A stretch of DNA of 64,000 bases. Source: Nitrososphaerales archaeon (GTDB lineage: Archaea > Thermoproteota > Nitrososphaeria > Nitrososphaerales > Gagatemarchaeaceae). The position numbers and the translations under genes were made by a program. Shown here piece after piece: positions 4,266 to 7,847 of this stretch. The stretch's first letter is position 1. Each line of letters begins with the position of its first letter. Location of the stretch: NCBI GenBank assembly GCA_032906765.1, contig JAJTZB010000001.1:62001-126000 (forward strand), given 5' to 3'. A model generated the notes under the pieces. It had not been told where the DNA came from and made no database searches. It was given only the letters and a program-made list of their open reading frames with translations.

Positions 4266-4883
4266 TTATTCCCTTATCGCAGCGTTGAACTCCGCGAGGC
4301 CGTTCGGCCTGTAATACCTGCCTCCTGTGAGAGTCGCGATGCCCCTCAGCTCCTGGGAGGCGGAGTTAGAGAGCTCAATCGCGTCGAAGGCCACCTTTGC
4401 AGCCTTTAGCTCCTCCGCGCAGTTCTTCACAGGTTCCCCATCGTTGCCGCCGTCGCTGATCAGCTTGACCCTCTTCTCCCCCCTCAGCGAATCGGCTATC
4501 TCGCCCAAGCTGAACCTGATCGCGTCGACCAACGGGCTCCCGCCCTTGCACGGCATCTCGTTCAGCCTGTACAACTCAAGACTCGCCGGCGCAGGGTTGA
4601 GCGGCACGACAACGTCGAGTTGCGTGCTGCCCGGCGTGCCCAGCAGCCTATAGAACGTGATGCCGATCCTGAGCGGCCACGGTACGTAGGAGACGGCCCA
4701 CCTTTCGTTCACGAACCCCAGCAGGCCCACCCTGACGATGTCCATCCTTCTCATGCCCGAGGCCTTGACCTTGTCGTTCATGCTGCGCGACCCGTCGATG
4801 ATGAAGAACAGGTCCTTGGCCTTCGACTCGTCGTAGCTCAAGGAATCTCGGTCGGGCCGAGAGCTAAACGTATAAAAGCTCAT
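4266..4883 (-). CDS. von Willebrand factor A (vWA) domain protein next to tubulin
   Basis: A 205-residue soluble protein that is almost entirely one vWA domain. The metal-ion-dependent adhesion site is recognisable: DGSRS near residue 31 (DxSxS), GGSPLVDAIR at the usual Thr position with Ser instead, and LISDGGNDGE with the last Asp. There is no signal peptide or membrane segment, so it should act in the cytoplasm, probably by metal-dependent binding of a partner protein. It is divergent from the tubulin gene, and the two first possible start codons share the same CATG at 4881-4884. Its own promoter would lie inside the first codons of the tubulin gene and was not clearly seen. The partner is inferred from position. 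Confidence 0.85.
   Translation of the reverse strand: MSFYTFSSRPDRDSLSYDESKAKDLFFIIDGSRSMNDKVKASGMRRMDIVRVGLLGFVNERWAVSYVPWPLRIGITFYRLLGTPGSTQLDVVVPLNPAPASLELYRLNEMPCKGGSPLVDAIRFSLGEIADSLRGEKRVKLISDGGNDGEPVKNCAEELKAAKVAFDAIELSNSASQELRGIATLTGGRYYRPNGLAEFNAAIRE
4871..4878 (+). promoter_or_regulatory. TATA box of the tubulin gene
   Basis: TATAAAAG centred 28 nt before ATG 4903. It lies inside the first codons of the divergent vWA gene, so binding of TBP here could affect that gene too. The spacing makes ATG 4903, not ATG 4882, the likely start. Confidence 0.7.
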
Positions 4884-4902
4884 GGCCGAAGGACGTGCGG
4901 AT

Positions 4903-6270
4903 ATGGCCTACAGAGTCGCAAGTCAGGCTCCTCTCGCCCCTAATCCTGTCATAATGGCCTGCATGGGGCACGCGGGAGTCGGAATCGGCGCTGAGGCCTA
5001 CAGATGGGTGCTAATCGACGTTGGCGCGGACCCGAAGGCGCCGACTCTGAAGGGCGAGAAGCAGCAGCTCGAAGTGCTCCGTAGATACGGCAGCACGATT
5101 CTGAGGTTCGGTGCGTCCATGAGGAAGGGAGAGACACCGCTCGTCCCGAGGGCTCTGCTGATTGACTTGGACCCCAGGTCTGCCAATCTGATTCTGCAAT
5201 CATACCCTCAACTCTTCGCCATGAAGGACAAGCACGTTGTGTACGGCCTGGGAGGCGCGGCGAGGAACTGGGCGGAAGGGCGTCTGAGATTCAGGAACGA
5301 GATAGTCGGCAAGCAGGACATAAAGTCGAGGATACAGGCGATATCTCCCGAACCCGTCAGGGGCTTCATAGTCCCGTTCAGCATGGGAGGGGGAACAGGA
5401 GGTTCGTTCTCCTCCGAGTTCATGGCCTACGTGAAGGGGGACAACGGCCTAGGCCAGGCAACGATTGCCACCTTTGGCATCCTTCCGGAGTTCGGCTGGG
5501 ACCCGGTGATCTTCGGGCCGGCTCAGATCAGCATCACGCTCAACATGGCGTACCAAATCAGGTACTCCGACGCCCCGATCCTGATGGACAACAAGGAGCT
5601 CAGGTTCCACGCAGACAGGCTGAAGGATATGTTCAAACAGAGGAGCTCCATCGTCGACGAGCTACCCACGCGGTTAAGGGTGGGTTGGCACGACTACAGG
5701 GACAAGAACCTGCTGGCCGCACATGCCATTGCCGAATTCATGAATTCTTTCATCAGGGAGACTGAATGGGATATGTCGAACTACAGGACCTGGCTTGCGG
5801 CGAGCAAGCCGAAGTTCGTAGTTCCGTGGCTGATACCGCTCGTTCCGAAGGGCGGATCGGACCTGAGAGCCATAGAGCAGGCGATGTCGGACGGGAATGA
5901 AGGCGTTCTCTTCGACCTTCAGGCCGACGGAGGAGAGATGGAGAAGGGACCAACCGACTCTGCGTGCGTTCTCGTGAAGACTAGCGGCAGCCTTGAGGCA
6001 GAGGAGCGGGAATTCTTCAAAAAGCTACTGGACGACAGGTACGGCGTGAAGGAAAAGCGCATTATCTTCATCAAGATTCCCACCATGCCAGGGGAGCCCG
6101 CGGCAGCGTGCATTCTCCTGAACTTGAAGGCGGTCGGCAAGAAGCTCCTGCCCATAGTAGCGGAGGCGGAGGACGCTTGGGACTCCTACAAGGATGAGTA
6201 TCAGAAGAAGGAACTCACACACGAGGAGTTCAAGAAGGCTGCGATCGAAGTAACCGGCCACATGGGTTAA
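4903..6270 (+). CDS. Tubulin-superfamily GTPase close to eukaryotic-type tubulin
   Basis: A 455-residue protein, about the length of tubulin. The tubulin signatures are in order: G22-x-x-G-x-x-I-G...W35 (compare GQCGNQIG...W), VPRALLIDLDP at 81-91, GGAARNWAEG at 117-126, RGFIVPFSMGGGTGGS at 153-168 (T4 phosphate loop), ILPEFGWDPVIF around 190-200 (T5) and DNKEL (tubulin DNEAL, where Asn contacts the base). From VPRA to the T4 loop the spacing matches beta-tubulin with only a one-residue shift. The T7 region reads TEWDMSNYRTWL and keeps acidic residues. FtsZ and CetZ lack several of these motifs. A GTP-dependent filament former in the cytoplasm is the natural inference. It lies 6 bp before the coiled-coil gene and is divergent from the vWA gene. 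An artubulin-like or FtsZl-1-type protein is the main alternative name. Confidence 0.9.
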   Translation: MAYRVASQAPLAPNPVIMACMGHAGVGIGAEAYRWVLIDVGADPKAPTLKGEKQQLEVLRRYGSTILRFGASMRKGETPLVPRALLIDLDPRSANLILQSYPQLFAMKDKHVVYGLGGAARNWAEGRLRFRNEIVGKQDIKSRIQAISPEPVRGFIVPFSMGGGTGGSFSSEFMAYVKGDNGLGQATIATFGILPEFGWDPVIFGPAQISITLNMAYQIRYSDAPILMDNKELRFHADRLKDMFKQRSSIVDELPTRLRVGWHDYRDKNLLAAHAIAEFMNSFIRETEWDMSNYRTWLAASKPKFVVPWLIPLVPKGGSDLRAIEQAMSDGNEGVLFDLQADGGEMEKGPTDSACVLVKTSGSLEAEEREFFKKLLDDRYGVKEKRIIFIKIPTMPGEPAAACILLNLKAVGKKLLPIVAEAEDAWDSYKDEYQKKELTHEEFKKAAIEVTGHMG

Positions 6271-6276
6271 GTCAAA

Positions 6277-6822
6277 ATGGACCTGTCGGAACTCGAGGTC
6301 GCAGCAGGAAGGCTCTTGGAGGAGCAGAAGAGGCTCCGCTCCATAGACTCCGAGCTGACTATGCTGAAGCAGGAGCTGAGGGAGATGCCGAGGAGGGAAG
6401 TGAAGGACAAGAGTTTCTACGCTCTGATAGGGCTCAACTACGAAGAGCCGGGACACTCCAACAGGGAGGCCGAACTCAAGAAGGAGAGGGAGTCGGTCCT
6501 CAAAAGCATCCGCGAGGCCGAGGGCACGATAAAGAAGGGCCTCACGTCTCAGGGTCTCGTGATACCCCTCGACCCGAACCCGACAGTCGTTGGGGACATG
6601 TTCACATTCAGGTTCAGGTCGCAGACGACATTCCCAAAGACGATGGAGGAGCTGGGCGAGCTGCTCGGACTGTCGTCGCCGATAAGGATAGGTCCAGTGA
6701 TGATTTACGCGGACAAGATAGTTGTCACAGAGGTCGACCAGTACTTCGCGAAGGAGAAGATTGTAGAGGCCTTCGACAACATCCGTAAGTCCGTGAACCT
6801 CAGGCTGACGCAGAGGCGGTAG
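6277..6822 (+). CDS. Coiled-coil protein in the tubulin operon
   Basis: A 181-residue protein not recognised. Residues 1-40 and 60-95 are heptad-rich and highly charged (for example LLEEQKRLRSIDSELTMLKQ), consistent with a coiled coil interrupted by a short loop. Residues 100-181 form a compact domain with predicted beta strands (TFRFRSQTTFP, GPVMIYADKIVVTEVD) and an amphipathic end. There is no signal peptide or membrane helix. Only six bases separate it from the tubulin stop codon, so the two are almost certainly co-transcribed. An adaptor or filament-binding role is a guess from context. Confidence 0.8.
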   Translation: MDLSELEVAAGRLLEEQKRLRSIDSELTMLKQELREMPRREVKDKSFYALIGLNYEEPGHSNREAELKKERESVLKSIREAEGTIKKGLTSQGLVIPLDPNPTVVGDMFTFRFRSQTTFPKTMEELGELLGLSSPIRIGPVMIYADKIVVTEVDQYFAKEKIVEAFDNIRKSVNLRLTQRR

Positions 6823-6869: not shown

Positions 6870-7847
6870 TTGGAATCCAACAAGAGAATAACCGACCTGT
6901 TCGAACGGGTAAGGGCACCTTTCAAGAAGCTGGGCGAGACGGTCGGCCAGACGGCAAGCAGTGACGACGACCTGATCCACGCAGTGATACAGAGGATAGA
7001 TGTCGAGGGAGAAACGTCGTTGCCGGAGGCTCAGCCCCAGGGTGGATACGACAGGGAGGAGATGTACAAGAGGCTGCTGAGGCGCCTGGACTGGCAGGTC
7101 AGGAAGTCTGGCATAGGCGCGGAGGAGCTGGTCAGGACATACGGGGGCGAGGTGCAAGCTGTTCTCCTGCACAAGTCGTACGAGCGATTCAGGAACAAGA
7201 GCTCCGACGTTTTGAGGGGTAAGTTCATAGAGTTAGGTCTGAAGAACGTCCAGCCTGGCGTATGGGTGCTCCCGCCCAACAGGGTGCCCTCTGGTCTCAC
7301 CACGCAGGATGAGCTCAGGATGTGGGTGCGGCGCGAGCTTGCGAAGCCGCTCGGGAAGGACTTCGATTACGTCTTCTCTTTCGTTGCGGTCGTTGACCTG
7401 AAGAAGGTGATTGCGGAGAGGAAGGGCATAAGGAAGATGCCAGTCGCGAGGACGATATACAACGTGCTGGAGGTCGACGAGGTCGTGCCCCCCAGCCACC
7501 TCTACGCGACGCTGAAGTCAAGGAGCATGGGTGTCAGGGACATAATACTGAGCGGAGACTTCCCGTTCCTCGCGAGCGCGTTCGCCGAAGACGAAGACGT
7601 CGCGGCGATTAAGGAGCACGAGGAGGAGATCGCGACTAGGCTTAGGAACGCGACAGGGTCGAAGAGCGCGGCCCTGGAGGACATAGCCAACCTCGGAGCT
7701 GACATAATCGGGGCATCGCTCGAGGGAATAGTCGCCCACCCGAAGGACCTTGCGCAGAGGCTCATAGTCGAAGCACAGTACTGGATGAGGTTCCTTGGCG
7801 GTTCCGTGCCTGGGATGAGCTTCCTCAGCGGCTCGGCCCCAGAGTGA
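6870..7847 (+). CDS. Unknown protein following the tubulin operon
   Basis: A 325-residue soluble protein not recognised. The N-terminal 60 residues are polar and look disordered. Residues 65-130 are helical with many basic residues (KRLLRRLDWQVRKSG). The middle (DFDYVFSFVAVVDLKK, VARTIYNVLEVDEVVP) looks like an alpha/beta core. The end has a Gly/Ser-rich tail. TTG 6870 is chosen because GGGGAG lies about 10 nt upstream, so this is one of the few starts here relying on a ribosome binding site. That fits an internal gene of a tubulin-coiled-coil-unknown operon with a 47 bp spacer. No catalytic motif was found. Confidence 0.75.
   Translation: MESNKRITDLFERVRAPFKKLGETVGQTASSDDDLIHAVIQRIDVEGETSLPEAQPQGGYDREEMYKRLLRRLDWQVRKSGIGAEELVRTYGGEVQAVLLHKSYERFRNKSSDVLRGKFIELGLKNVQPGVWVLPPNRVPSGLTTQDELRMWVRRELAKPLGKDFDYVFSFVAVVDLKKVIAERKGIRKMPVARTIYNVLEVDEVVPPSHLYATLKSRSMGVRDIILSGDFPFLASAFAEDEDVAAIKEHEEEIATRLRNATGSKSAALEDIANLGADIIGASLEGIVAHPKDLAQRLIVEAQYWMRFLGGSVPGMSFLSGSAPE

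Follow-up and report, generated by a model that had tools for sequence, protein, structure and literature searches.

An artubulin gene of the Nitrososphaerales and the protein encoded directly downstream

Introduction

Tubulin is the microtubule protein of eukaryotic cells, and a gene with tubulin-like motifs in an archaeal genome raises the questions of whether it encodes a true tubulin relative and what that protein might do. Such a gene lies in the window studied here, by which we mean the whole 64,000-nucleotide stretch of DNA analysed from a Nitrososphaerales archaeon. An earlier note on this DNA had described it as coding for an archaeal protein with eukaryotic-style tubulin signatures. 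Since 2012, artubulins, whose function is purely predicted, have been named as potential tubulin ancestors or sister proteins; they were described in Nitrosarchaeum with genes for Snf7 and dCMP deaminase alongside (Yutin & Koonin 2012, PMC3349469). The artubulin of N. uzonensis is ~79% identical to that of Nitrosarchaeum and has no Snf7 neighbour (PMC3835317). Artubulins have been placed in the tubulin family (PMC9871819), with their exact position left unsettled (PMC13394414).

Identification of the gene as an artubulin

All five motifs that the earlier note had claimed were located in the open reading frame at 4882-6270 (Table 1). Its statement that FtsZ and CetZ do not share this set also held in our alignment, where the VPRA..DLxP and NWAxG blocks are missing from both. 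The match to beta-tubulin had been called almost gapless over about 80 residues, which is roughly right, apart from small indels, such as 2-3 extra residues behind LFAM, and a larger indel close to residue 60. The start had been put at 4903; the open reading frame opens at 4882, and 4903 is an in-frame methionine (Met8) that is as plausible a start, because the divergent gene on the other strand starts at 4883.

Table 1 Features of the artubulin locus, in window coordinates
Feature	Position	Strand	Basis
Divergent VWA-domain gene, 205 aa, MIDAS motif DGSRS	4266..4883	-	PF00092, 25.6 bits (cut-off 23.8)
Artubulin open reading frame, 462 aa	4882..6270	+	PF00091, 44.2 bits; homologs in 46/201 genomes of the order; groups with tubulins in tree
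T1 loop GHAGVGIG (aa 29-36), tubulin GQxGxxIG	4966..4989	+	Alignment with alpha-, beta- and gamma-tubulin
VPRALLIDLDP (aa 88-98), tubulin VPRAxxVDLEP	5143..5175	+	Alignment; not in FtsZ/CetZ
T3 region GGAARNWAEG (aa 124-133), tubulin (S)GAGNNWAKG	5251..5280	+	Alignment; invariant in 27 sequences
T4 signature GGGTGGS (aa 169-175), tubulin GGGTGSG	5386..5406	+	Alignment
T6 DNKEL (aa 236-240), tubulin DNEAL	5587..5601	+	Alignment
T7 loop RETEWDMSNYR, ExDxxN versus NxDxxE/D of tubulin/FtsZ	5755..5787	+	77/79 copies; MAFFT register
C-terminal helices resembling tubulin H11-H12, without acidic tail	6127..6264	+	Alignment, AF2 model, hhalign
Partner gene, 181 aa, helical hairpin (aa 3-51, 60-90) and small alpha/beta domain	6277..6822	+	6 bp after artubulin
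G3, 325 aa, no known family, third gene of apparent operon in f1	6870..7847	+	Co-occurrence with artubulin

In a Pfam search, PF00091, the tubulin/FtsZ GTPase model (cut-off 33), was alone in matching the window protein, and the models for FtsZ, CetZ and Tubulin_2 (PF13809) did not match it; weak matches to PF13809, with E values of at least 0.0086, were seen in 3 of 27 relatives. Searched with the sequence by itself, the PDB gave Asgard AtubB as the best match (5.8e-15), followed by beta- and alpha-tubulins, and a search with the family profile gave AtubB (1.9e-21), AtubA and then gamma-tubulin. The comparison of profiles that had been proposed as a check favoured tubulin (hhalign E of 6.5e-16 over 380 columns, the full length) over CetZ (4.4e-4 over 102 columns) and FtsZ (0.031).

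The maximum-likelihood tree, with references comprising alpha-, beta- and gamma-tubulin, CetZ1/2, 3ZID and M. jannaschii FtsZ (sequences taken from PDB alignments), split the tubulins and artubulins from FtsZ and CetZ with a support of 100/100. Forcing the artubulins together with FtsZ or CetZ made the tree ~36-39 log units worse, with AU p values of 0.0003-0.0026. The window protein thus falls on the tubulin side, and the FtsZ/CetZ grouping that the earlier note had named as refuting its reading was rejected. The artubulins formed a separate clade (100/100) on a long branch, and its attachment point within the tubulin side received weak support (76/72), partly because the Asgard sequences in the tree are fragments. 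The AF2 model of artubulin was poor (pLDDT 55); the best 50 Foldseek matches obtained with it were all full-length tubulins (E ~1e-13, ~475 columns), at an rmsd too high for geometry to be read from them.

The window protein is 51-54% identical over its full length to the artubulins of Nitrosarchaeum and Nitrosotenuis. The Nitrosarchaeum homologs are flanked by Snf7 and dCMP deaminase genes, as published, and a Nitrosotenuis copy is 79.2% identical to a Nitrosarchaeum copy, matching the published value. Because of this identity, neighbourhood and match, we conclude that the window gene is almost certainly a genuine archaeal tubulin relative belonging to the artubulins, a family that had been named before. 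The reading as a tubulin-type protein is therefore supported, with the refinement that the protein belongs to a known family and is not a new kind.

Membership of other families was rejected: for FtsZ, by the lack of a model match, a T7 loop unlike NxDxxD and an AU p < 0.003; for CetZ, by an AU p of 0.0007 (grouping with CetZ1/CetZ2/3ZID) and by tubulin-only blocks that are present here and missing in CetZ; and for FtsZl1 (Tubulin_2, PF13809), by a size of 462 aa at full tubulin length, a clear T6 and no PF13809 match for the window protein. Convergence of a diverged FtsZ or CetZ on tubulin motifs, or contamination with a eukaryotic gene, might fit the long branch and the unsettled position within the tubulin side, but is extremely improbable given the rejected grouping, the absence of any FtsZ/CetZ family match and the retention of the gene, together with a conserved neighbour, in different families of archaea.

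The best-scoring relatives of solved structure, the Asgard (AtubA/AtubB, OdinTubulin) and eukaryotic tubulins, have the VPRA/DLxP, NWAxG and DNxxL blocks and, as judged by sequence alignment over the full length, H11-H12 in common with artubulin, whereas artubulin lacks their acidic C-terminal tail and forms its own long-branch clade.

Distribution of artubulins

Homologs 51-86% identical over their full length were found in 46 of the 201 genomes sampled from the order, far more than chance would produce, and a phylum-wide sample of 398 genomes yielded 23 matches, all within the order. The 80 named artubulin loci belong to Thaumarchaeota/Nitrososphaeria, covering Nitrosotalea, Nitrosotenuis, Nitrosarchaeum and metagenome-assembled genomes from soil, groundwater and mines (habitats taken from isolate names). 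The amoA gene was detected in families f2, f3, f8 and f10 and in none of the genomes of f13 or of f1, the window's family, so artubulins reach lineages without this ammonia-oxidation gene. The deep amoA-less branch broadens the known range of the family and may help to place the root of tubulins. No homologs were found in plasmids, phages or viral contigs and no PHROG matched, and a mobile or viral origin was rejected on these grounds.

Within f1 (46 genomes), 23 genomes carry artubulin; one that lacks it (G010) is a single contig listed as 100% complete. The window's genome itself encodes two FtsZ-type proteins and has two Snf7-like matches, both weak and located on other contigs. In f1, the presence of canonical FtsZ is independent of that of artubulin, and both are absent from some genomes; this speaks for an accessory role of artubulin. 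The idea that artubulin replaces canonical FtsZ was rejected, as genomes with both, either or neither occur in no clear pattern.

It should be noted that a contig titled Gammaproteobacteria bacterium BBSC-SA02 (L096) carries an archaeal artubulin-partner pair and is probably mislabelled or from a mixed assembly. One genome of f3 (G002) has two such pairs, on the different contigs C7 and C69 (L028).

The downstream partner gene

A homolog of the 181-aa gene (Table 1) follows artubulin directly in 76 of the 76 loci with a continuing contig, usually after a gap of 2-18 bp, with partners located by a six-frame profile search; the remaining 4 of the 80 loci end at artubulin and were excluded from this count. 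In the genome sample, the gene was present in 46 of 46 artubulin genomes, including beside both copies in G002. In its AF2 model (pLDDT 89.6), the partner has a pair of long antiparallel helices together with a small alpha/beta domain. Searches gave it neither a Pfam family nor a confident PDB fold; tubulin cofactor A appeared at an E value of only 0.87, a likeness between helical hairpins that we discounted.

Loss of the two genes is coupled in artubulin-bearing families. In f1 the partner occurs in the same 23 of 46 genomes as artubulin, so that genomes without one also lack the other. A broken partner gene in G013 (L151) and a mere remnant in G183 (L152), two genomes in which no artubulin was detected, suggest recent loss of the pair. 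The 181-aa protein is probably the working partner of artubulin, and a gene found at every complete locus gives biochemical and structural work a definite starting point.

Lineage-specific neighbours

The remaining neighbours differ between lineages, and artubulin plus partner is the core common to all loci. G3 was found in 22 of the 23 artubulin-positive f1 genomes and in 0 of the 23 artubulin-negative ones. In three f1 genomes it lies on a contig other than that of artubulin, so its presence there is independent of a shared contig. The VWA gene was found in 21 of the 23 artubulin-positive genomes; further matches were a weak paralog in G115 and, in G184, a fragment at the end of a contig. 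Fisher P values for co-occurrence with artubulin were 6e-12 for G3 and 2e-8 for the VWA gene, both calculated as if the genomes shared no ancestry. In f1, the genes for the VWA protein, artubulin, the hairpin partner and G3 thus form a co-inherited four-gene set that is kept or lost jointly. The earlier note had called the neighbours unassigned; they constitute a conserved module with artubulin and are not incidental.

In Nitrosotalea-type loci, the module consists of a TPR gene and a gene for a ~99-aa protein, both present in 33 loci. At L070 (8731-9841) and 32 similar loci these two genes lie upstream of the artubulin-partner pair. Snf7 stands beside artubulin only in seven Nitrosarchaeum-type loci among the 80, and no such homolog was found in the rest of these loci or in the window. 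One f13 locus (L150, 457-1092) encodes a predicted protein that resembles the Snf7 of Nitrosarchaeum, located ~3 kb from the partner and scoring below the Pfam Snf7 model. The window's artubulin therefore shares its family, motifs and downstream partner with those of Nitrosarchaeum and Nitrosotenuis, but its host lineage lacks amoA and its locus has a VWA gene and G3 instead of Snf7.

BtubA and BtubB are bacterial tubulins encoded in an operon of Prosthecobacter together with the TPR protein BtubC. They resemble the present case in being tubulin relatives in a prokaryotic operon, and a TPR gene likewise stands upstream in Nitrosotalea-type artubulin loci; in contrast, the artubulin loci encode a single tubulin, and the window locus has no TPR gene.

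The T7 loop and GTP hydrolysis

The T7 sequence RETEWDMSNYR occurs in 77 of 79 artubulin copies, the exceptions being RETEWDMSNFR (L050) and RDTEWDMSSYR (L087). In 15 of 16 MAFFT variants, tubulin N249-D251-E254 is aligned with artubulin E295-D297-N300. The hhalign register differs, with S299-Y301-W304 opposite these tubulin residues, and in both registers no acid stands at the catalytic T7 position (alpha-tubulin E254). Compared with the T7 of tubulin sensu stricto, eukaryotic and Asgard (NxDxxE), artubulin has neither N249 nor the alpha-type catalytic E254.

In alpha-tubulin and FtsZ, the T7 acid of one subunit is what completes the GTPase site of the subunit next to it. By this established mechanism, the change to ExDxxN suggests that artubulin may hydrolyse GTP slowly, as judged from the residues present. 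The near-invariance of the change makes this a specific and falsifiable prediction on GTP turnover.

Possible functions of the artubulin system

We propose that artubulin would bind GTP via its conserved T1-T6 loops and that its subunits would stack head to tail into tubulin-like protofilaments. With no catalytic acid in T7, hydrolysis would be slow and the filaments long-lived. The partner may bind artubulin through its helical hairpin and either control assembly or anchor the filaments, and in f1 the VWA protein and G3 could serve as further metal-dependent or adaptor subunits. The filament would then support cell shape or membrane organisation as an accessory scaffold rather than act as the essential division machine, and such a scaffold is the most likely role; the accessory nature is argued by the half of f1 genomes, including G010, that lack artubulin, some of which also lack canonical FtsZ. 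Taken jointly, the identity as an artubulin and this mechanism are what we regard, with slightly better than even confidence, as the best explanation of the locus.

More broadly, these genes may represent an undescribed cytoskeletal system, made up of a slow- or non-hydrolysing tubulin, a universal hairpin protein and lineage modules (VWA and G3 in f1, Snf7 in Nitrosarchaeum, and in Nitrosotalea-type loci TPR and the ~99-aa protein), which was present early in the Nitrososphaerales and was repeatedly lost as a unit. We advance this wider reading tentatively, at a little under even chances. The universal hairpin partner, the four-gene co-inheritance in f1 and the ExDxxN T7 loop appear to be unreported: none was found in open-licence PMC papers.

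Several other functions can be weighed against the scaffold. Systems of FtsZl1 and VWA genes combine a tubulin-superfamily gene, a VWA gene and coiled-coil content; most FtsZl1 proteins are fused to an extended coiled coil, with a length of 1051 aa for the type protein, and T6-H7 is unidentifiable in them (Makarova & Koonin 2010, PMC2875224). By analogy, artubulin could form the filament in a membrane-remodelling system linked to VWA, in which separate genes encode the filament, the coiled coil and the VWA domain. The window locus has the corresponding parts, namely an adjacent, MIDAS-bearing VWA gene co-inherited in f1 and a coiled-coil partner. However, no VWA gene was seen beside artubulin outside f1, and artubulin, at 462 aa with a clear T6 and with its partners encoded separately, is not an FtsZl1 by sequence or architecture. 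We consider this analogy rather unlikely to hold.

On the basis of the Snf7 gene next to artubulin in Nitrosarchaeum, a role in cell division together with ESCRT-III (CdvB/Snf7) has been proposed (Yutin & Koonin 2012, PMC3349469). This published prediction agrees with the seven Nitrosarchaeum-type loci, but the neighbour on which it is based is restricted to that one lineage. Moreover, the only Snf7-like matches of the window's genome are weak and lie on other contigs, and closely related genomes exist without artubulin. We think this role unlikely, and somewhat more so than the VWA-linked system.

Artubulin could also be a GTP-binding regulator that kept the tubulin fold and lost the filament function, since T7, which forms part of both the longitudinal contact and the active site, has been rewritten and yet is almost invariant. 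The protein nevertheless retains tubulin length, the GTP loops and H11-H12 under strong conservation, and beta-tubulin also lacks the T7 acid at 254 and polymerises. A non-polymerising regulator is accordingly the least probable of these functions in our estimate, and the polymerising scaffold remains preferred.

Partner homologs without artubulin

Homologs of the partner occur without artubulin in two families, full-length in f2 and short in f8, so the partner fold has other uses. No hidden divergent artubulin was seen beside these solo homologs in the neighbourhoods inspected. At L145 (4375-5949), from an ammonia oxidiser with a large genome, the C-terminal domain of the partner has a short homolog beside the genes for Nep1 (PF03587) and Rpp21 (PF04032), and short forms of this kind are present in many f8 genomes. 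In f2, a full-length homolog lies 3' of a radical SAM gene (L142, 5090-6766; L144, 4517-6163), and a similar radical SAM gene is found two genes downstream of the artubulin-partner pair at L060.
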